A DNA stretch of 44,948 nucleotides from Pseudomonadota bacterium (GTDB lineage: Bacteria > Pseudomonadota > Gammaproteobacteria > Burkholderiales > Burkholderiaceae_C): the NCBI GenBank assembly GCA_030538605.1, contig JAUNTQ010000019.1, positions 1-44,948 of the forward strand, written 5' to 3'. The notes beneath the pieces are model-generated. The model was not told where the DNA came from and searched no databases. It saw only the letters and a list, made by a program, of their open reading frames with translations. Each line of letters begins with the position of its first letter. Position 1 is the first letter of the stretch. A program made the translations under genes and the position numbers. Below, piece by piece: positions 4,913 through 40,487 of this stretch.

Positions 4913-6442
4913 TCAGGGCGACGCGTTCATCGCGGGCAAACGCAGCGTGGCGATGGCCCCGCTGTCGGCGCGGGCGGGGGCAAAGCCCGGCTCGCGGCGG
5001 GCGGTGTTGGTGCTGCGGGCGTTGGCCAGGGTGACGCTGCCCTGGTGCAGGGTGGCGATTTCGCGCACGAAGGCCAGGCCCAGGCCCGTGCTTTTCTTGT
5101 GCGAGCCGGGGCGCGCGAGCGAGAAGAATTTGTCGAATGCGCGGCCTTCGGCATAGGCGGGCAGGCCGGGGCCATGGTCGCGCACGGTGATGCAGGCCAT
5201 GCGCCCGTCGCGCGCGAGGGTGAGCACGATGTCGGTGCCGCCGTCTTCCGCCGGGTCGGCGGGCGCTGAAAACTCGATGGCGTTGTCAAGCAGGTTGCCC
5301 ACGGCGCGGCGCAGCAGGAAGGCGTCGCCTTCTGCGCTCAGCGGCTCGCGCACTTGCACGTCGATGGCCAGGCGCGGGGCGCGCGCGCGGGCGCTGGCGG
5401 CCAGCTCCTGCAGCATGGGCGCCAGCGGCACGGGCTGCTGGTTTTGCAGCATGCGGCGGCTTTCCAGCGCGGTGAGTTCCAGCATGCGCTCGACCACCTC
5501 CTGCATGCGGTGGGTTTCGCGCGCGATGTTGGTGGCAAAGCGCGCGGCCTGCTCGGGCGGCATGCCCGGCTCTTGCAGCAGCTCGGCGGCGCCGCGCACG
5601 GCGCTGATGGGGCTTTTGAGTTCGTGGGTGAGCTGGCCCACGTAGTCGTGCACGTAGTTGCGCCCGGCGATGGCGTCGCGCACTTCATGCCCGGCGGCAC
5701 GCAGCTGCGCGCGCAGCGCCCGCCAGGCGCGGCGGGGGCTGAAGCTGCGGCGGCCTTGCGCGTCGCGCGCCCAGGCGGTGCCGAGCGCGGCGAGCAGGTC
5801 GCTGGTGATGCCCAACGGGCGCATGAGCCAGAACGACAGCAGCAGCGCCAGCGCCAGCGCCGATGCGCCCGAGACCAGGCCCACGTAGACGATGTTGCGC
5901 CGCGCGTCGGAGACGAATTGGCCGAAGCTCTGCACGGGCTTGCCGAGGGTGACGACGCCGACGATCTCGCCCTGCCAGCGGATGGGCGCGCCGACGTACA
6001 TGACGCTGCTGCGCGCGTCGCCGGGCACGTCGCGCGTGGTGCGTGCGCCGTATTCGCCGCGCAGGCTCTGGCGCACGTCGCGCCAGTGGGCGTAGTCCTG
6101 CCCCAGGTCGCGCCCGGTGGAGTCGTAGACCACCTGGCCGTAGCGGTTGGTGACGTAGGCGCGCAGCTCCACGCGGGTTTTGTGCAGGTTGTAGATCTGG
6201 GCGGAAAAGCGGCGCGCATACAGGTCGCGAAACAGCCCGCCGATGCGGTCGGTGGGCAATGCGCCGTGTTCCACCTCCTGCTCGATCACGGTGGCCAGCA
6301 GCTGCGTGGTTTCGATCAGGCCGTCTTCGGCGGATTCGCGGTAGCGCGGGTCGATGTCGGCCAGCAGGTGAAACAGCAGCGCCCCCATGCCGATGGCGTA
6401 GATGGCGATCAGCGCGAGGATGATGCGGGTGCGGCGGGACAT
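4913..6442 (-). CDS. creC: Two-component sensor histidine kinase CreC
   Basis: This is an inner-membrane sensor kinase of 509 residues that phosphorylates the response regulator encoded just upstream (creB). Two membrane segments (about residues 7-28 and 183-207) bracket a periplasmic sensor region with a motif (GEIVGVVTLGKPV) typical of CreC. The kinase core shows the H-box LTHELKSPISAVRGAAELL with phosphoacceptor His273, the N-box NLLDNAIEFSAP (Asn387), the G1 box DHGPGLP (422-428) and the G2 box GLGLAF (453-458). In E. coli CreBC responds to carbon source and cell-wall stress; the signal here is unknown. creB ends 24 bases before this start, so the two are probably cotranscribed. No creD is present beside them. 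Confidence 0.9.
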   Translation of the reverse strand: MSRRTRIILALIAIYAIGMGALLFHLLADIDPRYRESAEDGLIETTQLLATVIEQEVEHGALPTDRIGGLFRDLYARRFSAQIYNLHKTRVELRAYVTNRYGQVVYDSTGRDLGQDYAHWRDVRQSLRGEYGARTTRDVPGDARSSVMYVGAPIRWQGEIVGVVTLGKPVQSFGQFVSDARRNIVYVGLVSGASALALALLLSFWLMRPLGITSDLLAALGTAWARDAQGRRSFSPRRAWRALRAQLRAAGHEVRDAIAGRNYVHDYVGQLTHELKSPISAVRGAAELLQEPGMPPEQAARFATNIARETHRMQEVVERMLELTALESRRMLQNQQPVPLAPMLQELAASARARAPRLAIDVQVREPLSAEGDAFLLRRAVGNLLDNAIEFSAPADPAEDGGTDIVLTLARDGRMACITVRDHGPGLPAYAEGRAFDKFFSLARPGSHKKSTGLGLAFVREIATLHQGSVTLANARSTNTARREPGFAPARADSGAIATLRLPAMNASP

Positions 6443-8581: not shown

Positions 8582-9331
8582 TCAGTCCGCCACGGGTTCG
8601 AAAAAGAGCTTGTCGCCTGCCTCGGTGCTGGACAGGCGCACGCTGGCGGGCCGGCCCCAGACCGGCTCGGGCAGGGGCTCGTCGCTGGCGCGGTACACGC
8701 CGGCGATGGACACCAGCTCGGGCCGCATGTCGCGCGCGAAGATGCGCGCGCCCGGCCAGCCGCGCGCACCGGCAATGGCGCGGCCACGCAGCGGGGCATA
8801 GACGTGGATGTGGCCGTCGGCGATGACTTCGGCCCCGGCATTGACCATGGCCATGACCACCAGGTCGCGCCCGCGCGCATAGGCCTGCTGGCCGGAGCGC
8901 AGGGGGCGGTCGATGACCAGCGCGCCGGGCTCGGGCACGTCGGGCGCGGGTTCGGGGGCAGCAGCCGGGGTTGAGGCCGGGGCCTGCACGCATGCATCGG
9001 GCGCGGCCAGCAGACCGGCGTGCAGCGCCGCCTCCATGTGGCTGGCGTGGCCACCGCGCACGGCCAGCGGGCGCAGGCGGTGTGTGCGCAGCAGGGTGAG
9101 CAACTGCGAAAAGTCGATGGGAGGGGGAGGTGCCTCGGACGCGGGCAGCGCCGAAAGGTCGATCACCAGCGCGTCGTCTTCGAAAAAACCGGGTTTGTCG
9201 CCGTATTGGGCCGACAGCTCGGCAGCGAGGGTGTCCAGGTCGGCGGATTTCAGGCGCAGTGCCAGCAGGGGCCAGCTGGCGCTTTTGATTTCGAAACTGG
9301 AGGGGCTGCGGCCGGCAAGGGCGACGGACAT
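8582..9331 (-). CDS. minC: Septum formation inhibitor MinC
   Basis: MinC (249 residues) inhibits FtsZ assembly away from mid-cell and works with MinD. The N-terminal domain (about 10-105) binds FtsZ. A Pro/Ala-rich linker (about 112-137) leads to the C-terminal beta-helix domain (about 138-235), with the MinD-binding RSGQ (145-148) and GHIHVYAPLRGRAIAGA. The start at 9331 (MSVALAGRSPSSFEIKSAS) fits the family; the frame is open upstream only through low-complexity sequence. It is the first gene of the min operon, and its promoter should lie in the candidate origin region to the right. Confidence 0.94.
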   Translation of the reverse strand: MSVALAGRSPSSFEIKSASWPLLALRLKSADLDTLAAELSAQYGDKPGFFEDDALVIDLSALPASEAPPPPIDFSQLLTLLRTHRLRPLAVRGGHASHMEAALHAGLLAAPDACVQAPASTPAAAPEPAPDVPEPGALVIDRPLRSGQQAYARGRDLVVMAMVNAGAEVIADGHIHVYAPLRGRAIAGARGWPGARIFARDMRPELVSIAGVYRASDEPLPEPVWGRPASVRLSSTEAGDKLFFEPVAD

Positions 9332-9478
9332 GGGCGCGGACGACGGCGACGTGAGGGGGAAAAGCGACCGGCGTTCACAGCGGTCGGAAGGGGAAAGGCG
9401 GAGCGATCTTACCAGCGGGCCGGGCTTTGCTTGCCGTTGCGGTGTGCTGCGGCGCAGGGCCGGAGCCTGAGAGGGCGC

Positions 9479-9728
9479 TTTTGCACAGGCGCGCTGTCTC
9501 CATGGCTGTTGGCTTTTTTTGTATGAAAGATTAGTCGTAGTAGTAGAAGGCCTGCACAAGCGGGGAAAACCTGGTTTTGTCTTTTTGAATCAAGGGCTTG
9601 CGTGGTGTTTTCGGCTGTGGGAAAGCGCCGTGGAGGTGCGGGAGGGGAAAGGGATAAAAACGCCTGTCGCGCGTCGCTTGTGGATAAGTCGATGCTTATG
9701 CCAGAACTATCCACAGGGTTGTGTGAAA
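9479..9728. other. Candidate replication origin (oriC): DnaA-trio array, AT-rich flank and DnaA boxes
   Basis: The 428-base gap 9332-9759 has no credible gene. It holds an AT-rich run GGCTTTTTTTGTATGAAAGA (9511-9530), then triplets TAG-TCG-TAG-TAG-TAG (9532-9546), then the GC-rich AAGGCC. To the right are DnaA-box-like sites: a perfect TGTGGATAA (9679-9687), CTATCCACA with one mismatch (9707-9715), TGTGGGAAA with two (9616-9624) and TGTGTGAAA (9720-9728). TTTTGCACA (9479-9487) matches the relaxed TTWTNCACA. Box, GC-rich spacer, TAG triplets and AT-rich DNA in this order is the layout of bacterial basal unwinding regions. The site is about 24 kb from the parS cluster. No dnaA gene is nearby, so a relic or a regulatory site remains possible. 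Confidence 0.6.
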
Positions 9729-9759
9729 CTTCGGGACATGCGATGGGAGGTAAGTCTTG

Positions 9760-9969
9760 TCATTTTTCGATGACCCACTGGATCACGCTCTTGGCCAGAA
9801 AGCCGAGCATGCCGAAGGCCAGCGCCAGAAACAGGATGAAGGTGCCGAACTTGCCCGCTTTCGACTCCCAGGCCAGGTGGGCGATGATGAACACCATGTA
9901 GAGCATGAACGCGCCCACACCCACGGTGAGGCCAAACCAGGCGATCTGCTCTTCTGAAAAACCAAACAT
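9760..9969 (-). CDS. DUF2788 small membrane protein
   Basis: This 69-residue protein starts MFGFSEEQIAWFGLTVGVG and has two hydrophobic helices (about residues 11-32 and 42-62) joined by a short basic loop ESKAGKFG. Sequence and size match the DUF2788 family of small inner-membrane proteins found in beta- and gamma-proteobacteria. The function is unknown. It is encoded 37 bases downstream of the DUF2189 gene and could be cotranscribed with it. Its 3' end borders the candidate origin region. Confidence 0.85.
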   Translation of the reverse strand: MFGFSEEQIAWFGLTVGVGAFMLYMVFIIAHLAWESKAGKFGTFILFLALAFGMLGFLAKSVIQWVIEK

Positions 9970-12204: not shown

Positions 12205-12612
12205 TCAGTGGCCGGCCAGGTCGTCGAGGATGGGGCAGTCCGGCCGCTGGTCGCCATGGCAGTGCTGCAGCAGGTTTTGCAGCGTGGCGCGCATGTCCTG
12301 CAAGGCGGCGATGCGTTGCTCAAGATCGGCCAGATGTGCGTTGGCGATGCGCTTGACGTCGGCGCTGGCGCGCTGGCGGTCGTGCCACAGGCCCACCAGT
12401 CCGCCGATTTCGGCCATCGAAAAGCCGAGCGCGCGGGCACGCTGGATGAAGCGCAGGGTGTGCACATCGGCGGGGGTGTACTGGCGGTAGCCGGCTTCGG
12501 TGCGGGCCACGGGGCGCAGCAGGCCGAGCGATTCATAGTGCCGCACCATCTTGGCCGACAGGCCCGAGGCGCGCGCGGCCTGGCCGATGGCGACGGGGCC
12601 GCTGCCGCTCAT
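12205..12612 (-). CDS. cueR: Cu(I)-responsive MerR-type regulator CueR
   Basis: This MerR-family activator (135 residues) senses cytoplasmic Cu(I) and twists promoters with long spacers. The N-terminal HTH reads AIGQAARASGLSAKMVRHYE. A dimerisation helix follows, then the metal loop Cys118-HGDQRPD-Cys126: two cysteines with seven residues between, as in CueR (Cys112 and Cys120 in E. coli). The start codon overlaps the copZ stop (ATGA), so the two are translationally coupled. The likely targets are the two promoters in the copZ-copA gap. Confidence 0.93.
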   Translation of the reverse strand: MSGSGPVAIGQAARASGLSAKMVRHYESLGLLRPVARTEAGYRQYTPADVHTLRFIQRARALGFSMAEIGGLVGLWHDRQRASADVKRIANAHLADLEQRIAALQDMRATLQNLLQHCHGDQRPDCPILDDLAGH

Positions 12613-32110: not shown

Positions 32111-32530
32111 ATGAAGATTCTTCTGGATACCTCTGCACTGGCCAAACGCTACAAGCGCGAGCCGGGCTGCGAATCGGTCGATGACTGGCTGGCGCAGGCC
32201 GACGAGGTGGTGCTGGCGGCGCATTGCAAGATGGAGATTGCCTCGGCCTTTCTGCGCGACGTGCATGACCAGATCTTGTCCACCGGGCAGTACGCGCTGG
32301 GCATGCGTGAGGTGGCGGTGGATTTCACCGAGTTTGCCGTGTTGCCGGTGTCGCCGGATGTGGAGTCGCTGGCCATCGCCGCCATGCAGCGCACCCGCCT
32401 GCGCGCGATGGACGCGCTGCACATCGGCACGGCGCAGGCGGCGGGCGTTGACCTGTTCGTGACCGCCGACCGCCAGCAGGCCCGTGCGGCCGAGCAGGCC
32501 GGGCTGCGGGTGGAGATGGTGAGCGCATGA
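32111..32530 (+). CDS. VapC-like PIN-domain toxin
   Basis: This 139-residue PIN-domain ribonuclease has conserved acidic residues Asp6 ([11 protein letters not shown]), Glu42 (KMEIASAF), Asp101 ([11 protein letters not shown]) and Asp120 (FVTADRQQ), so it looks intact. It should cleave RNA when not held by the antitoxin. The ATG at 32111 is preferred over an in-frame TTG 9 bases earlier. Its stop overlaps the mnmG start (ATGA), which puts an essential-type tRNA modification gene directly behind a toxin. Confidence 0.9.
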
Positions 32531-34476
32531 GCATGATCTACCCCCAACACTTCGACGTCATCGTCGTCGGCGGCGGCCACGCGGGCACCGAGGCCGCGCT
32601 GGCTGCCGCGCGCATGGGCGCGCAGACCCTGCTGCTCACGCACAACATCGAAACCCTGGGCGCGATGAGCTGCAACCCCAGCATCGGCGGCATCGGCAAG
32701 GGCCATCTGGTGAAAGAGGTGGACGCACTGGGCGGCGCGATGGCGCTGGCCACCGACGAAGGCGGCATCCAGTTCCGCACGCTGAACTCAAGCAAGGGCC
32801 CCGCCGTGCGCGCCACCCGCGCGCAGGCCGACCGCGTGCTGTACAAGGCCGCCGTGCGCCGCATGATCGAGAACCAGCCGAACCTGTGGCTGTTCCAGCA
32901 GGCGGTGGACGACCTGATGCTGGAGGGCGACCGCGTGACGGGTGCCGTCACGCAGGTGGGCATCGCCTTCAAGGGCCGCACCGTGGTGCTGACGGCGGGC
33001 ACGTTTCTGGACGGACGCATCCACGTGGGGCTGGACAACTACGCGGCGGGCCGCGCGGGCGACCCGCCTGCGGTGTCGCTCTCGGCGCGGCTGAAAGAGC
33101 TGAAGCTGCCCCAAGGCCGCCTGAAAACCGGCACGCCGCCGCGCCTGGACGGGCGCAGCATCGACTTCAGCGCCTGCGAAGAACAGCCCGGCGACAGCGA
33201 CCCGGTGCCCGTGTTCAGCTTCATGGGCCGGGCAGACATGCACCCGCGCCAAGTGCCGTGCTGGATCACGCACACCAACGCGCGCACGCACGACATCATC
33301 CGCAGCGGCTTTGACCGCAGCCCCATGTTCACCGGCAAGATCGAAGGCGTGGGCCCGCGCTATTGCCCCAGCGTGGAAGACAAGATCAACCGCTTTGCCG
33401 ACAAGGAAAGCCACCAGATCTTTCTGGAGCCGGAGGGGCTGGACACGCACGAGGTCTACCCCAACGGCATCAGCACCAGCCTGCCGTTCGACGTGCAGCT
33501 GGCGTTGGTGCGCAGCATGAAGGGGCTGGAAAACGCCCACATCCTGCGGCCCGGCTACGCCATCGAATACGACTACTTCGACCCGCGCGCCCTGCGCAGC
33601 AGCTTCGAGACGCGCGACGTGAAAGGCCTATTCTTCGCCGGGCAGATCAACGGCACCACGGGCTATGAAGAAGCGGCGGCGCAAGGGCTGTTCGCCGGCA
33701 TCAACGCCGCGCTGCAATGCCGTGGCGAAGCGCCCTGGCTGCCGCGCCGTGACGAAGCCTATCTGGGCGTGCTGGTGGACGACCTCATCACCAAGGGCGT
33801 GACCGAGCCTTACCGCATGTTCACCAGCCGCGCCGAATACCGCCTGCAACTGCGCGAAGACAACGCCGACATGCGCCTGACCGAAGCGGGCAGGGCGCTG
33901 GGGCTGATCGACGACGCGCGGTGGAACGCCTTCAACCGCAAGCGCGACGCTGTTTCACGTGAAACAGAGCGCTTGAAAGCCACCTGGGTGAACCCGCGCA
34001 ACCTGCCCGCCGCCGAGAGCGAGCGCGTGCTGGGCAAGGCCATCGAGCATGAGCATAACCTGTTCGACTTGCTGCGTCGCCCGGATGTGAGCTACGCCAG
34101 CCTGATGTCGATGGACGGTGGCCGCCACGCGGTTGCCGATGTTTCACGTGAAACACTGGGCGATCTGTCTGTCCCCGTGATCGAGCAGGTGGAGATTGCC
34201 GCCAAATACAGCGGCTACATCGACCGCCAGCGCGACGAGGTAGAGCGCGCCGCGCATTATGAAAACCTGCGCCTGCCGCCTGAGCTGGATTACATGCAAA
34301 TCCCCGCGCTCTCCATCGAGGTGCGGCAAAAGTTGCAAAAGCACCGGCCGGACACGCTGGGCCAGGCGGGCCGCATCAGCGGGGTGACGCCAGCGGCCAT
34401 CTCGCTGCTGCTGATTCACCTGAAGAAGGGCGGCTTCAAGGGTTTTGCAGGCGGCACACCCGTCGCCGTGGCATGA
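32527..34476 (+). CDS. mnmG: tRNA uridine-5-carboxymethylaminomethyl modification enzyme MnmG (GidA)
   Basis: With MnmE this FAD protein modifies uridine 34 of several tRNAs. The 649 residues include the FAD motif [19 protein letters not shown] (GGGHAG at 15-20), [20 protein letters not shown] and [51 protein letters not shown] and a C-terminal MnmE-binding region also fit. An ATG at 32533 ([10 protein letters not shown]) may be the ancestral start; 32527 is used because it overlaps the toxin stop. Two perfect parS sites lie within the coding sequence, each read as VSRET. It overlaps rsmG by 4 bases. Confidence 0.96.
33951..33966. other. parS: parS site 1 (inside mnmG)
   Basis: TGTTTCACGTGAAACA, the exact 16-base palindromic parS consensus, where ParB loads onto the chromosome. 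It is read in mnmG as VSRET. It lies about 5.6 kb from parB. Confidence 0.95.
34140..34155. other. parS: parS site 2 (inside mnmG)
   Basis: TGTTTCACGTGAAACA again, an exact match 189 bases after site 1 and in the same reading frame, so it too is read as VSRET. Confidence 0.95.
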
Positions 34477-35126
34477 CGGCGCACCCCTTGCACGCGCGTT
34501 TGGCCGAGGGGCTTGAGGCGCTGGGCCTGCCCCTGACCGACGCGCAGGCCGGGCAGCTGCTGGCCTACCTCGATCTGCTGGGCAAGTGGAACAAGGTCTA
34601 CAACCTGACGGCGGTGCGCGACCCCGCTGAGATGCTCACGCACCATGTGCTCGACAGCCTGGCCGTCATCGCGCCGCTGCGGCGGCACACGCAGGGCAGG
34701 GCGCTGCGGCTGCTGGACGTGGGCGCGGGCGGCGGCTTGCCGGGTGTGGTGATCGCCATCTGCTGCCCCGAAATCGCGGTGAGCTGTGTGGATGCCGTGG
34801 CCAAGAAAGCCGCTTTCATTCAGCAAGCCGCGGGTTCGCTGGGCTTGCCGGATCTGCGCGGCGTGCATGCGCGGGTGGAACGCATCGTCGACACATTCGA
34901 TGTGGTGACCTCGCGCGCCTTCGCCAGCCTGGCTGATTTCACCGGCTGGTCGCGCAGCGCGCTGGCCGAGGGCGGTGTGTGGATGGCGATGAAGGCCAAA
35001 TGCCCCGTCGATGAAATCGCCGCGCTGCCCACAGGCGTGGACGTGTTTCACGTGGAACAACTCACCGTGCCCGGCCTGGATGCCGAGCGCTGCCTGATCT
35101 GGATGCGGCCACGCGCCGCGCATTGA
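34473..35126 (+). CDS. rsmG: 16S rRNA (guanine527-N7)-methyltransferase RsmG
   Basis: This 217-residue class I methyltransferase (GidB) methylates G527 of 16S rRNA. Motifs are [20 protein letters not shown] (39-58), HVLDSLAV, and the SAM-binding loop [17 protein letters not shown] (80-96), then [11 protein letters not shown]. The start overlaps the mnmG stop (ATGA). A near-perfect parS (one change) lies in the 3' part of the gene. Gene order mnmG-rsmG-parA is standard near bacterial origins. Confidence 0.95.
35044..35059. other. parS: parS-like site 3 (inside rsmG)
   Basis: TGTTTCACGTGGAACA differs from the parS consensus at one position (A to G) and is read in rsmG as part of VFHVEQ. It is probably a weaker ParB site. 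Confidence 0.8.
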
Positions 35127-35128
35127 CC

Positions 35129-35566
35129 ATGTCTACCGAACGCTTCACCCGCACCCCGGCTTTTCGCATCGCCCTGTGGGGTGGCCTGAGCGCCGGCCCG
35201 GTGCTCGCCCTGCTGTGGCCGATCTTCGTGCGGCTGGAGTCTGGCGTCTGGCCGGCTTCGCCCATCGCACTCACCCTGGCCATGTTCACACTGGGCACGC
35301 TCACCGGGCTGGGGGCAGCCTTCACGGTGTTGCTGCCTGCGCTCAGTCTGTTCAAGCTGCGTCCCGGCCCGCGCCTGCGCTGGGTGGCGGCGGGCGTTGG
35401 GGCGGGCGTGTGTCTCATCCTGGTCACGCTTTTCGGTCTTTTCTCGGACGTTGAGCGGGTGGGCGCACAGTGGCCGCTGGGCTTGCTTCTTACAATCGTC
35501 GGGGCGCTGTGCGGGTGGCTGGGTGCGCTGGCCGTGCCCGCCGCCCACTCGGTGCCGCGCGACTGA
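35129..35566 (+). CDS. Uncharacterised four-helix membrane protein
   Basis: I do not recognise a family for this 145-residue protein. It has about four hydrophobic stretches (LWGGLSAGPVLALLWPIF, ALTLAMFTLGTLTGLGAAF, VAAGVGAGVCLILVTLF, GLLLTIVGALCGWLGAL) with short basic loops, so it should be an inner-membrane protein. It starts 2 bases after rsmG and ends 88 bases before parA, so it is probably transcribed with them. A TTG at 35123 is an alternative start. Confidence 0.75.
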   Translation: MSTERFTRTPAFRIALWGGLSAGPVLALLWPIFVRLESGVWPASPIALTLAMFTLGTLTGLGAAFTVLLPALSLFKLRPGPRLRWVAAGVGAGVCLILVTLFGLFSDVERVGAQWPLGLLLTIVGALCGWLGALAVPAAHSVPRD

Positions 35567-35654
35567 GCCGAGCGTCCTTCCCCCGTCCCACGCCCGCCGC
35601 CACCGATTTCGCCGCTGGCACACAACCCCTCCCCGCAGCTACCACCTCCACGCC

Positions 35655-36434
35655 ATGGCTCAAATTTTCTGCATCGCCAACCAAAAAGGCGGGGTCGGCA
35701 AGACCACCACCACCGTCAACCTGGCCGCAGGCCTGGGCAAGATCGGCCAGCGCGTGCTGCTGGTCGATCTCGATCCGCAGGGCAATGCCACCATGGGCTC
35801 GGGCGTCGACAAGCGCGCGCTCAAACACTCGGTGTATGACGTGCTGCTCGAATCCGCCAGCATCGCCGAAGCCGCCGTGGTGCCCGACAAGCTCAAGGAG
35901 GCCGGCGCACCCTACGCCGTGCTGGGTGCCAACCGAGAGCTGGCCGGGGCCGAGGTCGAGCTGGTGGCCGAAGAGCGCCGCGAGCGCCGCCTGAAAGACG
36001 CGCTCGCCCAGGTGGCCGATGCGTATGACTTCGTCCTCATCGACTGCCCGCCCTCTTTAAGCATGCTCACCCTGAACGGCCTGTGCGCCGCGCAGGGCGT
36101 CATCGTGCCCATGCAGTGCGAATACTTCGCGCTCGAAGGCCTGGCCGACCTCACCAACACCATCAAGCAGGTGCACGCCAACCTCAACCGCGACCTCAAG
36201 CTCATCGGCCTGCTGCGCGTCATGTTCGACCCCCGCATCACCCTGCAGCAGCAAGTCAGCGACCAGCTCAAGGCCCACTACGGCGAAAAGGTGTTCGACA
36301 CCCTCATCCCCCGCAACGTGCGCCTGGCCGAAGCCCCCAGCTACGGCCTGCCCGGCGTCGTGTTCGACCCCGCCGCCAAAGGCAGCAAAGCCTTCATCGA
36401 CTTCGCCGAAGAAATGGTGCAGCGGATGAAGTAA
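35655..36434 (+). CDS. parA: Chromosome partitioning ATPase ParA (Soj)
   Basis: This 259-residue ParA-family ATPase moves ParB-parS complexes during chromosome segregation. The deviant Walker A motif is KGGVGKTT (11-18); VDLDPQGNATMGSG, LIDCPPSLSMLTLNGL and MQCEYFALEGLADL follow, and the C-terminus is family-like. The ATG at 35655 gives MAQIFCIANQKGG. The stop TAA (36432-36434) is the first part of hairpin copy 5. Unusually, parB is not adjacent: four genes lie between. Confidence 0.96.
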   Translation: MAQIFCIANQKGGVGKTTTTVNLAAGLGKIGQRVLLVDLDPQGNATMGSGVDKRALKHSVYDVLLESASIAEAAVVPDKLKEAGAPYAVLGANRELAGAEVELVAEERRERRLKDALAQVADAYDFVLIDCPPSLSMLTLNGLCAAQGVIVPMQCEYFALEGLADLTNTIKQVHANLNRDLKLIGLLRVMFDPRITLQQQVSDQLKAHYGEKVFDTLIPRNVRLAEAPSYGLPGVVFDPAAKGSKAFIDFAEEMVQRMK

Positions 36435-36528
36435 AAAAGGAGCTGCTTGCGTACGTATTCAGCCAGTTTCAGGAATAAAAATAACTAAAAAGACCAAATA
36501 ACCTACGCAAGCAGCTCCTGTTATTTTT
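36432..36528. repeat. AT-rich long-hairpin element, copy 5 (after parA)
   Basis: AAAGGAGCTGCTTGCGTACG and CCTACGCAAGCAGCTCCTGT form the arms. The element fills the whole gap between parA and the next gene, whose start codon follows 3 bases later. Confidence 0.9.
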
Positions 36529-36531
36529 CTC

Positions 36532-37080
36532 ATGCCATCCCCCATCGTGCTCACCCTGCCAGGCTGGCAAGGCAGCGGCCCCGCCCACTGGCAAAGCCGC
36601 TGGGAAGCGCTGCACGGCCACACGCGCGTGCAGCAGCACGACTGGCAGCGCCCCCTGCGCGGCGACTGGGCCGCGCGGCTGGACGAAGTCGTGCAACAGC
36701 AAAACCAGCCCGTGCTGCTGGCCGCGCACAGCCTCGGCTGCCTGCTCACCGCCTGGTGGGCCGCGCATTCGCGCCACACCGCCCGCGTGGTGGCCGCGCT
36801 GCTCGTCGCCCCACCCGACATCGAGCGCGACGACCTGCGCCAGCAAATCCCCGGTTGGGCGCCGCCCGCGCGGGTGCGCCTGCCCTTCAAAAGCATCCTC
36901 GTCGCCAGCAGCAACGACCCCTACGGCAGCCTACAAAATGCCAGCCGCCTGGCCGCCCACTGGGGCAGCGACTTTCTCAACCTCGGCCCCCGCGGCCACC
37001 TCAACGCCGACTCGGGCCTGGGCGACTGGCCCGAAGGGCTGGCGCTGCTGCAGTCGCTGGCAGGTGAGGGCACTGCTTGA
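36532..37080 (+). CDS. RBBP9/YdeN-family alpha/beta hydrolase
   Basis: This small serine hydrolase has 182 residues. The start PIVLTLPGWQGSGPAHWQSR is the family's oxyanion region. The nucleophile is Ser67 in AAHSLGCL, the acid probably Asp128 in SSNDPYG and the base in GPRGHLNADSGLGDWPEG. The substrate is unknown. Its upstream region is entirely the hairpin element, with no normal ribosome binding site, so expression may depend on read-through or a start inside the element. The stop overlaps the next gene. Confidence 0.88.
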   Translation: MPSPIVLTLPGWQGSGPAHWQSRWEALHGHTRVQQHDWQRPLRGDWAARLDEVVQQQNQPVLLAAHSLGCLLTAWWAAHSRHTARVVAALLVAPPDIERDDLRQQIPGWAPPARVRLPFKSILVASSNDPYGSLQNASRLAAHWGSDFLNLGPRGHLNADSGLGDWPEGLALLQSLAGEGTA

Positions 37081-37499
37081 TCCACGGCATCAGCCACCTC
37101 ACCTTCATCGTGCGCGACCTGTCCCGCGCTGCGCGCTTTTTCTGCGACGGCCTGGGCGCACGCGAGGTGTACGACAGCGCGGCGCGCCACTTCTCCCTGT
37201 CGCACGAAAAATTCTTCGACCTGAACGGCCTGTGGCTCGTCGCCATGCAAGGCGAGCCCCCGCCCGAGCGCAGCTACCGCCACGTCGCCTTCCAGGTGGC
37301 CGAAGCCGACCTGCCGCACTACGCCACCCGTCTGGCCGCCATCGGCGCCGAAGTGCGCCCGCCGCGCCCTCGCCCGCCGCGCCCGCGCGTGGCGGGCGAG
37401 GGGCAGTCGCTGTATGTGTACGACTTCGACAACCACCTGTTCGAGCTGCACACGGGCACGCTGAGCGAGCGCCTGGATCGTTGCCAAAATCAGAGCTGA
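37077..37499 (+). CDS. FosX-like glyoxalase-superfamily protein
   Basis: This 140-residue vicinal oxygen chelate protein resembles FosX/FosI-type Mn-dependent fosfomycin epoxide hydrolases. Metal ligands His7 (GISHLTFIVRD), His69 (ERSYRHVAFQV) and Glu123 (DNHLFELHTG) and a glutamate at position 44 (SLSHEKFF), the general base of FosX, are present. A low-complexity insert PRPRPPRPR (about 95-104) is unusual. The start is a TTG overlapping the previous stop. Resistance activity is not shown; chromosomal homologues often have other roles. Confidence 0.82.
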   Translation: MIHGISHLTFIVRDLSRAARFFCDGLGAREVYDSAARHFSLSHEKFFDLNGLWLVAMQGEPPPERSYRHVAFQVAEADLPHYATRLAAIGAEVRPPRPRPPRPRVAGEGQSLYVYDFDNHLFELHTGTLSERLDRCQNQS

Positions 37500-37584
37500 C
37501 TGCGCTTGTTACCAGGGCGATTGCATTCAAAAATGCTGCCTTGTTTTCCTCTCCACCCATCGGCTTGTGTATGCACATATCTTT

Positions 37585-37667
37585 GTAGGCTGGGTAGAGC
37601 GTGGGCGAAACCCAGCAAACCGGCTCGCGAGAACGCCGGGTTTCGCCTTCGGCTCTACCCAGCCTAC
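37585..37667. repeat. GTAGGCTGGGTAGAGC dispersed palindrome, copy 2
   Basis: Perfect 16-base arms GTAGGCTGGGTAGAGC and GCTCTACCCAGCCTAC, with inner GGCGAAACCCAGC / CCGGGTTTCGCC. It lies between convergent genes (FosX-like and MFS). The 15 bases upstream (ATGCACATATCTTT) resemble the flank of copy 3. Confidence 0.88.
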
Positions 37668-37698
37668 GAGGCTGGCAGGCCGCAAGCACCGCAACTTC

Positions 37699-38889
37699 TC
37701 AATCCCCCCGTACCGCCGGCACCCACGGCGCGTACAGCGCCGCCAGCCCCAGCGCGCCCGCCGACGCCAGCAGCGACGCCGACCAGCCCCACTGCTGCAC
37801 CAGCGCGCCGCCCGCCCACATGCCCAGACCCAGGCCCAGCATGAGCAGCGTGGTGCTCCAGGTGAAGGCTTCGGTTACCGTGGAGGTGGGTGCCAGCGCA
37901 CCCAGCTGCAGCGACAGTGCCGTGATCAGCGGCCCGAAGGCCAGCCCGGTGAACAGGCAGGCCAGCGTGAACCACGCCACCGAAGGCGCGAGCGCCATCG
38001 CTCCGCTGCCGGCGGCCAGCCACAGCACGGCCAGCAGAATCTGCCGGTTGAGCGGCGGCGCCCAGCGCCGCGTGCCGTACACCAGCCCGGCGATGGCCGA
38101 CGGAATGCTGACCGCCGCATAGAACAGCCCCACCAGCCGCGCATCGCCCTGTGCCGTGGCAAAGGCGGGCACGGCAATTTCGTTCAGCCCAAAACCCGTG
38201 GCCACCAGCAGCGTCAGCACCAGCGAGCGGCGCACGCCCATCACGCGCAAAGGGCCGAGCCAGTGGCGTTCGGCCGCCTGCTCCACCTGGCCCCAGCGCT
38301 CGATGGCGCCGGTGCGCGCAAACAGCGGCACGCCCAGCGCGATGCACCCTGCCGCCAGCAGCACGCCATACGCCGCCGAGCCCGCCAGCAGCGCCAGGCT
38401 GACCAAGAGCGGCCCCAGGATGAAGCAGCTCTCGATCACCACCGACTCCACCGCAAAGGCCGACTGCCGCTGCGACGCCGTCATGTCCGCCTTTCGGTAC
38501 ATGGCGCGAATCACGGTGGACACGGGCGGAAAGAACAGGCCCGCCACCAACGCGCTGCCCAGCAGCCACGGCAGCCCCAGGTTCAGCTGCGCCGCCCCCA
38601 CCACCGCCAGCAGCGCCAGCGTGTGGCCCGCCGCCAGCGGCCCCATCACCCCGCGCGGGCCGCGCTGGTCGATGAAGCGCCCCACCAGCGGTGCCTGCAG
38701 CGCCAGCGCCGCCATGTACGCGCCCGACACCCAGCCCGCCTGCGCAAACGAGCCCGTCGCCGCTTGCACCAGCAGCGTCAGCCCCAGCGCGTTCATGCCG
38801 ATCGGCAGGCGCGGCAGCACCGAACCCAGCATGATGCGGCGCAATTCGCGGTCGGCGAACAGCAGGCGGTAAGAGGACAGATCGAGCAA
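37699..38889 (-). CDS. MFS transporter
   Basis: This 396-residue major facilitator has about twelve membrane segments, with RFIDQRGPRGVMGPLAAG in the loop between helices 2 and 3 as in MFS drug/sugar exporters. STVIRAMYRKADMTASQRQS and TEAFTWSTTLLMLGLGLGM are also noted. The substrate is unknown. The start used is a TTG (MLDLSSYRLLFADRELRRI), since no ATG lies before the first helix. It faces the other genes of the interval and separates parA from parB. Confidence 0.85.
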   Translation of the reverse strand: MLDLSSYRLLFADRELRRIMLGSVLPRLPIGMNALGLTLLVQAATGSFAQAGWVSGAYMAALALQAPLVGRFIDQRGPRGVMGPLAAGHTLALLAVVGAAQLNLGLPWLLGSALVAGLFFPPVSTVIRAMYRKADMTASQRQSAFAVESVVIESCFILGPLLVSLALLAGSAAYGVLLAAGCIALGVPLFARTGAIERWGQVEQAAERHWLGPLRVMGVRRSLVLTLLVATGFGLNEIAVPAFATAQGDARLVGLFYAAVSIPSAIAGLVYGTRRWAPPLNRQILLAVLWLAAGSGAMALAPSVAWFTLACLFTGLAFGPLITALSLQLGALAPTSTVTEAFTWSTTLLMLGLGLGMWAGGALVQQWGWSASLLASAGALGLAALYAPWVPAVRGD

Positions 38890-39030
38890 GCCGGCGATTG
38901 TAGGCAGCGCCCGTGACAGAGGCCCCCGCTGCTACACTGCGCCGCCGGTAGTCGTTTGCGAGCCATCCGGCATGGGCAGCCCGGTCGGTCAAGGCCTACG
39001 TGAACCGATCCTCACGCGCGGGCCATACAC

Positions 39031-39534
39031 ATGAGACGTTTCCTGCGAAAACAAAGCGTTGCCAACGTGCCGGCTGCGCCCAAGCCATCGCTCATCCAGC
39101 GCTTTACCCAGAACGCAGCCGAAGCCATCGGCGCGGTCATCGAAGGGCTGGCGGGCCTGGGTGCCCTGATCGCTGTGCCTGTGGCCGTGGTGCTGGGCAA
39201 GCTGTTTCTGGCCGTCATCCTGGGCGTGGTGGCGCTGGGGGTGTTTTGGCGACTGGCGGGGCGCAAGCGCCGGGGCGGGGCGGCACCGGTCAGAATCGCT
39301 ACCCCGGCCTGGGCGCATGCCGTGGCGGGCCTGGCGTCGGCCATCGAGGTAGCGGTGCTGGTGGAGGCCACCCAACTGCCCGTGCGGCACGACCAACCCG
39401 GCTTCACGCAGACCAACTGGCTGCTCGTGCTGCTGGCGTGGAGCGTGGCCTATGTGTTGCAAACCAAAGGGCTGGCTGCCCTGCTGGCGCGCAGCCAACG
39501 TGGCAAGCCCGGCGCACCCGCGCGGCTGCCCTGA
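39031..39534 (+). CDS. Uncharacterised membrane protein upstream of parB
   Basis: I do not recognise this 167-residue protein. A basic N-terminus (MRRFLRKQSV) leads to an amphipathic stretch and a hydrophobic hairpin (about 32-73, LAGLGALIAVPVAVVLGKLF then LAVILGVVALGVFWRLAG). A third and fourth segment follow (about 93-110 and 130-150, WLLVLLAWSVAYVLQTKGL). It ends 17 bases before parB and may be cotranscribed with it. Confidence 0.7.
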   Translation: MRRFLRKQSVANVPAAPKPSLIQRFTQNAAEAIGAVIEGLAGLGALIAVPVAVVLGKLFLAVILGVVALGVFWRLAGRKRRGGAAPVRIATPAWAHAVAGLASAIEVAVLVEATQLPVRHDQPGFTQTNWLLVLLAWSVAYVLQTKGLAALLARSQRGKPGAPARLP

Positions 39535-39551
39535 TTGAGGAGAAAGACCCC

Positions 39552-40487
39552 ATGGTCACCAAGAAAACCAAAGGCCTGGGGCGCGGCCTGGATGCGCTGC
39601 TGGCACCTTCCGCGCTCGACCCCGTCGCCGCCGATGGCGCGCCCGCCACCCCTGCCGGCACGCCCATGATGCTGGCGCTGGCCGACATGGCCCCCGGCGC
39701 TTACCAGCCGCGCACGCGCATGGACGAAGGCGCGCTGTACGAGCTGGCCGAAAGCATCAAGGCGCAGGGCATCATGCAGCCCATTCTGGTGCGGCGTGTG
39801 GCTGGCGCGGCCTTGCCGTTCGAGATCATCGCGGGCGAGCGCCGCTTTCGCGCCGCCAGGCTGGCGGGGCTGGATGAGGTGCCCGTGCTGGTGCGCGACG
39901 TGCCCGACGAGGCCGCTGCCGCCATGGCGCTGATCGAGAACATCCAGCGCGAAGACCTGAACCCGCTGGAAGAGGCGCAAGGCATCCAGCGCCTGATCCG
40001 CGAGTTCGAGCTGACCCACGAGCAGGCCGCGCAAGCCGTGGGCAAAAGCCGCAGCGCCGCCAGCAACCTGTTGCGCCTGCTCAACCTGGCCGAGCCGGTG
40101 CAGACCATGCTCATGGCCGGCGACATCGACATGGGCCACGCCCGCGCCCTGCTGGCCTTGCCGGGCGCGGCGCAAATCACCGCCGCCAACCAGGTTGCCG
40201 CGCGCAAGATGACGGTGCGCGAGGCCGAGGCCCTGGTCAAGAAGCTGGGCGCAGAGTTCAGCCTCACTGCAGGGCGCAAGCCCTCTGCCGGGCGCGAAAA
40301 ATCGGGCGACGTGCGGCGGGTGGAAGAAGAGCTGTCCGACCTGCTCACCGCCGAAGTCGAGGTGCGCGTGAAAAAGCACCAGCGCCAGAACGGCCAGATG
40401 CAGCCCGTGGGCGAAATCGCCATCCACTTCGGCTCGATGGACGCGCTCAATGGCCTGATCGAGCGGCTGAAAGGCTCAACAGGCTGA
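39552..40487 (+). CDS. parB: Chromosome partitioning protein ParB (Spo0J)
   Basis: This 311-residue CTPase clamp binds parS and spreads on DNA. The N-terminal ParA-stimulating segment is KKTKGLGRGLDALLAP. The ParB/sulfiredoxin domain contains GERRFRAARLAG (95-106) and ENIQREDLNPLEEAQG (129-144). The HTH is about 154-177 (EQAAQAVGKSRSAASNLLRL), and a C-terminal dimer domain ends GEIAIHFGSMDALNGLIERL. GAGGAGAAAG precedes the ATG. Its targets are the three parS sites in mnmG and rsmG. Confidence 0.96.
   Translation: MVTKKTKGLGRGLDALLAPSALDPVAADGAPATPAGTPMMLALADMAPGAYQPRTRMDEGALYELAESIKAQGIMQPILVRRVAGAALPFEIIAGERRFRAARLAGLDEVPVLVRDVPDEAAAAMALIENIQREDLNPLEEAQGIQRLIREFELTHEQAAQAVGKSRSAASNLLRLLNLAEPVQTMLMAGDIDMGHARALLALPGAAQITAANQVAARKMTVREAEALVKKLGAEFSLTAGRKPSAGREKSGDVRRVEEELSDLLTAEVEVRVKKHQRQNGQMQPVGEIAIHFGSMDALNGLIERLKGSTG

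Follow-up and report, generated by a model that had tools for sequence, protein, structure and literature searches.

A putative chromosomal replication origin upstream of minC in an Ottowia-like member of the Burkholderiales, and a DnaA-trio module shared across its family

The gap 5′ of minC in this Ottowia-like member of the Burkholderiales very probably holds the chromosomal replication origin (oriC), judging from sequence comparison within its genus and family. In the window, the whole 44,948-base stretch of DNA analysed here, the gap runs from 9332 to 9759 between the start of minC at 9331 and the end of a 69-aa ORF at 9760, both on the minus strand, which confirms its earlier placement beside minC. 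A cluster of DnaA boxes sits in this non-coding DNA, where the order on the minus strand is an inverted box pair, a weak box (9616), a degenerate box (9561), a GC-rich spacer, DnaA-trios and an AT-rich run (Table 1). The first-pass annotation had described the same elements on the plus strand, as an AT-rich run, TAG-TCG-TAG-TAG-TAG, AAGGCC and then DnaA-type boxes. All are present in that order, the first three at 9514–9531, 9532–9546 and 9547–9552, and the layout of the block bears out the comparison that the annotation drew with the basal unwinding region found at bacterial origins. The perfect box that it reported is also there and is the only perfect occurrence of TTATNCACA in the whole window, at 9679–9687, with the inverted one-mismatch box at 9707–9715 lying 28 bases away. 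A further box, with one mismatch to TTATNCACA, is found at 9479, on the other side of the AT-rich run.

Table 1. Coordinates of the putative origin core and of neighbouring features in the window.
Feature	Position	Strand	Remarks
Putative origin core, 215-base block	9505..9719	-	5′ end on minus strand at 9719; ungapped block common to 25/27 genus minC-upstream regions
DnaA box CTATCCACA	9707..9715	+	1 mismatch; inverted relative to box at 9679..9687; position kept in genus
Perfect DnaA box TTATCCACA	9679..9687	-	Position near-invariant in genus alignment A1
Weak DnaA-type box TTTCCCACA	9616..9624	-	2 mismatches; CACA core mostly kept at this position in genus
Trio-proximal box position TTTTCCCCG	9561..9569	-	Degenerate, 3 mismatches to TTATCCACA
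GC-rich spacer	9549..9555	-	GCAGGCC on minus strand; from sequence reading and genus comparison
DnaA-trio array	9532..9546	-	Plus strand 3′ to 5′ from box side: GAT GAT GAT GCT GAT
AT-rich run past trios, candidate unwinding element	9514..9531	-	From sequence reading; relatives likewise
minC	8582..9331	-	Pfam MinC_N and MinC_C
minC promoter-like element, CTGNTAAGAT-like	9406..9415	-	Apart from origin core; pattern in 25/27 genus loci
parS sites	33951..35059	+	33951 and 34140 perfect, 35044 with 1 mismatch; within mnmG and rsmG
mnmG, rsmG, parA, serine hydrolase gene, ORF without Pfam match, parB	32527..40487	+	

The closest known counterpart is the basal unwinding system of the Bacillus subtilis type, which, in the available text of PMC8287927, has the same order of box, GC-rich spacer, 3′-GAT-5′ trios and AT-rich run, and a box-to-trio spacer of at most 16 and commonly about 13 bases. 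At least three 3′-GAT-5′ trios stand beside a box in the window block, and the spacer is 14 bases, as it is in 21 of the 25 genus sequences aligned (13 in three, 12 in one). The proximal box, with its three mismatches, falls outside the limit of two that a published search program sets for a single box, which is a program threshold rather than a proven functional limit; 18 of the 25 genus sequences have two mismatches or fewer to TTATCCACA at this position. The degenerate proximal box suggests, from sequence, a heavier reliance on the distal box pair in the window genome. Unlike the Bacillus subtilis-type system as presented in that text, the window block has no adjoining dnaA, and its boxes occupy about 150 bases, the distal pair being conserved and the proximal box degenerate in the window genome.

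The window genome is a draft of 234 contigs (3.77 Mb, 92% complete), and its genus appears to be Ottowia-like, since the nearest minC loci are those of Pseudomonadota/Burkholderiales MAGs and of Ottowia. Of 29 genus genomes, 27 have a MinC match, and the regions upstream of minC were aligned ungapped and anchored on the trios, an earlier gapped alignment having been dropped as too gappy. Boxes, spacer, trios and AT-rich run recur at one spacing in 25 of the 27 regions; the other two (L021 and L028), in which no trio was found, were left out of the alignment, and both genomes carry the block elsewhere. The trios are irregular in four of the 25 (L022, L025, L027 and L029), with an anchor score below 6 as against at least 23 for the other 21. 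Mean information over 10 columns is 0.17–1.41 bits within the block (about −170 to +50 from the anchor) and 0.08–0.27 bits either side; random offsets, as a control, averaged 0.11 and did not exceed 0.18 bits, and the bases flanking the 215-base block are not conserved among these regions.

A sequence-only model of the block, R1, was built from the 25 aligned sequences, so matches in the genomes that supplied them are not independent. Within the whole 3.77-Mb draft of the window genome R1 has a single match, at 9511–9718 (E = 9e-36, the window sequence itself being part of the model). It matches 27 of the 29 genus genomes, 26 of them once and G028 three times; the two genomes without a match are 78% and 84% complete and are also without a MinC match. 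In G003 and G007, whose minC regions are without the block and lie outside the model, the match is about 7 and 37 kb away from minC. Recurrence at a fixed spacing across the genus, together with the single match in a 3.77-Mb genome, indicates that the block is more than chance. A separate CTGNTAAGAT-like element occurs 36–90 bases 5′ of minC in 25 of the 27 loci, including those of G003 and G007, where there is no core, and from its sequence it is likely to be a promoter element of minCDE.

Conservation reaches well beyond the genus. Among 300 family genomes drawn at ≥95% completeness, five of them from the window’s genus, R1 matches 295, representing 114 of 115 genera. Loose box and trio motifs do arise by chance, and the block might on that account be a coincidence, or else the origin of an integrated plasmid; however, the E value in its own genome (with the sequence in the model), the best E values per genome of 4e-11 to 2e-28 in all of 40 family genomes outside the model, and the presence of the block in nearly every genus of the family leave either idea a negligible probability. 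These 40 genomes, each in 1–3 contigs and together from 34 genera, were hand-picked from the 300, with at least 16 more such genomes left out. At the level of the order, R1 matches 98 of 299 sampled genomes, of which 11 are family members, and the other matches are weaker (E = 1e-11 to 1e-3). Seven of the weaker matches outside the family fall at bases 845–1,736 of single-contig records, which would be a short way downstream of dnaA in any record that begins with that gene. Three genomes of another family (f7; G374, G541 and G562) each have three weaker matches about 360–770 bases apart, which is to say tandem origin-like cores outside the family.

The position of the block is variable. The 40 hand-picked genomes hold 63 matches in total, and a copy lies about 1 kb downstream of the DnaA domain in 12 of them (between dnaA and dnaN in G107 and G257, the two in which dnaN was located), 5′ of minC in five and beside mnmG in two, with G257 having both the dnaA and the mnmG type; in the remaining 22 all copies are elsewhere. 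With the 13 matches adjoining dnaA and one in G124 set aside, the shorter arc from dnaA to mnmG contains every one of the other 49. Arc distances use genome lengths given to the nearest 0.1 Mb (unrounded only for G244, G257 and G275), and the distance of the second copy of G124 is not measurable because it falls beyond the rounded genome length. As the block is found beside dnaA, beside mnmG or elsewhere in other genera, the module tracks the origin neighbourhood and not minC.

Loci with a named minC give a similar range of arrangements. R1 matches 54 of 80 such loci (n = 64 matches), which extend at most 6 kb from minC and are often shorter, so the absence of a match is weak evidence. All five loci labelled Ottowia have the block in the orientation of the window, and 28 of 34 labelled Hydrogenophaga have it, in 27 of the 28 reversed only and in one in both orientations; the block is present in none of the 17 labelled Polaromonas within the same ≤6 kb of minC. 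The objection raised in the first-pass annotation, that genes at 9.8–12.8 kb point toward the region, carries little weight given these 27 Hydrogenophaga blocks placed only opposite to minC.

An alternative is that the block is a DnaA-controlled promoter of minCDE, its boxes coupling the control of the division site to initiation, with no initiation at the site itself. The trios lie about 137–316 bases 5′ of minC in 25 of the 27 genus loci, as such a promoter might, and the frequent presence of the block near minC in Hydrogenophaga also fits. However, the whole block stands beside dnaA or mnmG with minC about a megabase or more off in G074, G168, G190 and G066, and likewise in G135 and G100, in which no minC was found. 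It occurs in either orientation relative to minC, the separate promoter-like element persists in the two genus genomes that have no block there, and a promoter has no need of trios or of an AT-rich run. We therefore regard a promoter role in place of an origin as highly improbable.

The first-pass annotation had noted that no dnaA lies near the candidate origin, and rightly so, as dnaA of the window genome is on a different contig (C169, the window being on C114) and the block does not adjoin dnaA, dnaN or rpmH. In six of nine other genus genomes examined (G014, G001, G025, G027, G004 and G003) dnaA and the block share a contig, 72 to 505 kb apart, and in the other three they are on separate contigs. 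The order is dnaA, mnmG, block in G027, G025 and G001, and dnaA, block, mnmG in G004 and G003. The first-pass annotation had named a second region by dnaA, with boxes and trios superior to those at minC, as a finding that would speak against the minC site; the rpmH–dnaA gap of the window genome holds a pair of boxes but lacks a trio array. An inverted pair of DnaA boxes, 49–50 bases apart, is found 5′ of dnaA in seven of ten dnaA loci (at 12311 and 12361 in L003, and in L033–L037 and L040), and two of the three loci without the pair start at dnaA, so that there is no upstream DNA to compare. DnaA boxes 5′ of dnaA serve dnaA autoregulation in Escherichia coli, and by analogy the inverted pair probably does the same here.

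The block might also be a relic, a former origin in a chromosome whose working origin is elsewhere, for example at rpmH–dnaA. The box pair 5′ of dnaA, the degenerate proximal box of the window genome and a GC skew that does not mark the site in the genus are all in keeping with this. However, a relic would not hold one spacing across 25 genomes, the window genome has no second R1 match (in a draft 92% complete, from which another such region could be missing), and the rpmH–dnaA gap is without trios. Conservation of the block throughout the genus makes a relic very unlikely in our view, and oriC, as first proposed for this gap, is clearly the best explanation of the block.

GC skew was read over contiguous stretches of G027, G025, G004, G257, G107, G275 and G244, together with a shorter stretch of G117, and it is almost absent over the stretches of the three genus genomes (G027, G025 and G004). 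With so flat a profile, skew does not separate the block from other sites in this genus, and so says little on the minimum elsewhere that the first-pass annotation had named as contrary evidence. The sign of the skew at the block is the expected one in seven of the eight genomes, and it is clear only in G275, where, over 200 kb of a record not rotated to dnaA, the cumulative minimum at 3,139,627 compares with copies at 3,139,824 and 3,140,292. In G117 (80-kb stretch) the skew changes from 0.000 left of the block to 0.037 right of it; it rises slightly across the block in G107, G025 and G004 and hardly in G257, and falls, the wrong way, in G027 (0.005 left, −0.004 right). G244, which has the minC-side arrangement, reaches its minimum at 2,410 kb; the block is 41 kb away from this point and dnaA 164 kb. 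In a local flip test with 40-kb flanks and 1-kb steps, the positions equalling or beating the block numbered 0 of 120 in G275, 15 of 120 in G025, 18 of 120 in G107, 24 of 140 in G004, 46 of 240 in G027, 188 of 220 in G244 and 278 of 320 in G257. KOPS counts around the block gave no signal, and other oligomer contrasts with small p values, among the several oligomers tried, were GGGG in G275, in G027 and around the second G257 copy, and AGGAG in G257 and G025.

The partition region of the window lies where it had been reported, with the parS cluster (33951, 34140 and 35044) about 24 kb from the gap, a distance that favours an origin here; no such sites were expected from 100 shuffles. A serine hydrolase gene (PF06821, 36532–37080) lies between parA and parB, as it does in six of the seven relatives whose region was read, with no match in G244.

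Extra copies of the block are frequent, with two or three R1 matches in 19 of the 40 family genomes in 1–3 contigs. Copies were compared by eye in seven genomes or loci, six of which have two or three, and the box positions, the proximal box and the trios are kept in all seven. Identity between copies is 77% in Hydrogenophaga taeniospiralis (two copies, 587 bases apart), 69–74% among the three of a Hydrogenophaga MAG (L224), and 60% and 53% for the pairs of L255 and G275. Similarity between copies ends at the block edges in three of five self-compared loci (L210, L232 and L224), which suggests retention of the copies by selection, alongside divergence of the sequence around them; only 74–76 bases align in L255, and the copies of L205 do not align at the same setting.

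Two arrangements of copies deserve separate description. One lineage of the genus (L210 and G028) has two or three cores 4.1–4.4 kb apart, one of them adjoining minC: Ottowia thiooxydans (L210) has copies at 1462–1670 and 5595–5805, 67% identical, and contig C25 of G028 has three cores at 57157, 61589 and 65722. On contig C1 of G257, cores at 2357461 (beside mnmG) and 2386114 (between dnaA and dnaN) form a pair 28.7 kb apart, in opposite orientation and 67% identical, perhaps an origin partway through a move.

A broader account, which we offer tentatively and consider plausible if somewhat short of probable, is that the origin in this family is a duplicating, relocating module of about 215 bases that is copied within the dnaA–mnmG region. 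Two or three cores would be kept by selection, all of them able to fire, and once the old copy was lost the origin would have a different gene beside it. On this view the origin of Ottowia next to minC would be the end state of such a move, and about half of the chromosomes in the family would be multi-origin.

In the mechanism that the available text of PMC8287927 describes for Bacillus and Helicobacter, DnaA at the boxes is directed to the trios of a single strand, and the stretching of this strand by DnaA opens the AT-rich run. By analogy, DnaA-ATP would bind the box pair at 9679–9715 and the weaker boxes towards 9561, would be guided over the GC-rich spacer onto the plus-strand trios, and would polymerise along them from 9546 to 9532. 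The polymer would stretch the plus strand so that the AT-rich run at 9514–9531 opens, and the helicase would be loaded there. The position of the module is not bound to that of dnaA, since it lies 5′ of minC in most of the genus and at other sites near dnaA or mnmG in sister genera. minC has a promoter-like element of its own, placed between its start codon and the module.

In E. coli, oriC lies beside mnmG (gidA) and apart from dnaA. The putative origin of the window is likewise apart from dnaA and in the wider mnmG neighbourhood, but unlike the E. coli type its neighbour is minC and its boxes are laid out differently. The origin of E. coli and Yersinia is given as gidA–mioC in the available part of PMC10225481. 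Putative double origins of bacterial chromosomes have also been proposed (Gao 2015, PMC4403523), and a table in the accessible part of that paper includes Ralstonia pickettii with hemE and dnaA. Our results resemble those cases in that there is more than one origin-like region per chromosome, in the Burkholderiales too. They differ in that the double origins, as set out in that part, were each proposed for a single species from box counts, skew and gene neighbourhood, whereas here one trio-bearing module occurs in two or three copies across many genera of a family. Origins located away from dnaA are already known, and multiple origins per bacterial chromosome have been proposed in that same source; the more surprising part is the family-wide moves and the extra copies of the module. 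A non-exhaustive literature search found no paper placing oriC at minC, describing the origin of Ottowia or Hydrogenophaga, or reporting such mobility, and the available portions of PMC6595937 (Acidovorax citrulli) and PMC4572682 (Delftia) hold nothing on origin position.

The block described here is the likely replication start for a large and mostly environmental group, Ottowia, Hydrogenophaga and their kin, whose GC skew can be weak. Genome records are often rotated to dnaA, and in the Ottowia-like genus that start would be off by 72–505 kb. R1 locates the site in draft genomes, as growth-rate estimates from read coverage require. The variable position of the module and its frequent second and third copies make origin movement, and the natural use of multiple origins, directly testable in this family.
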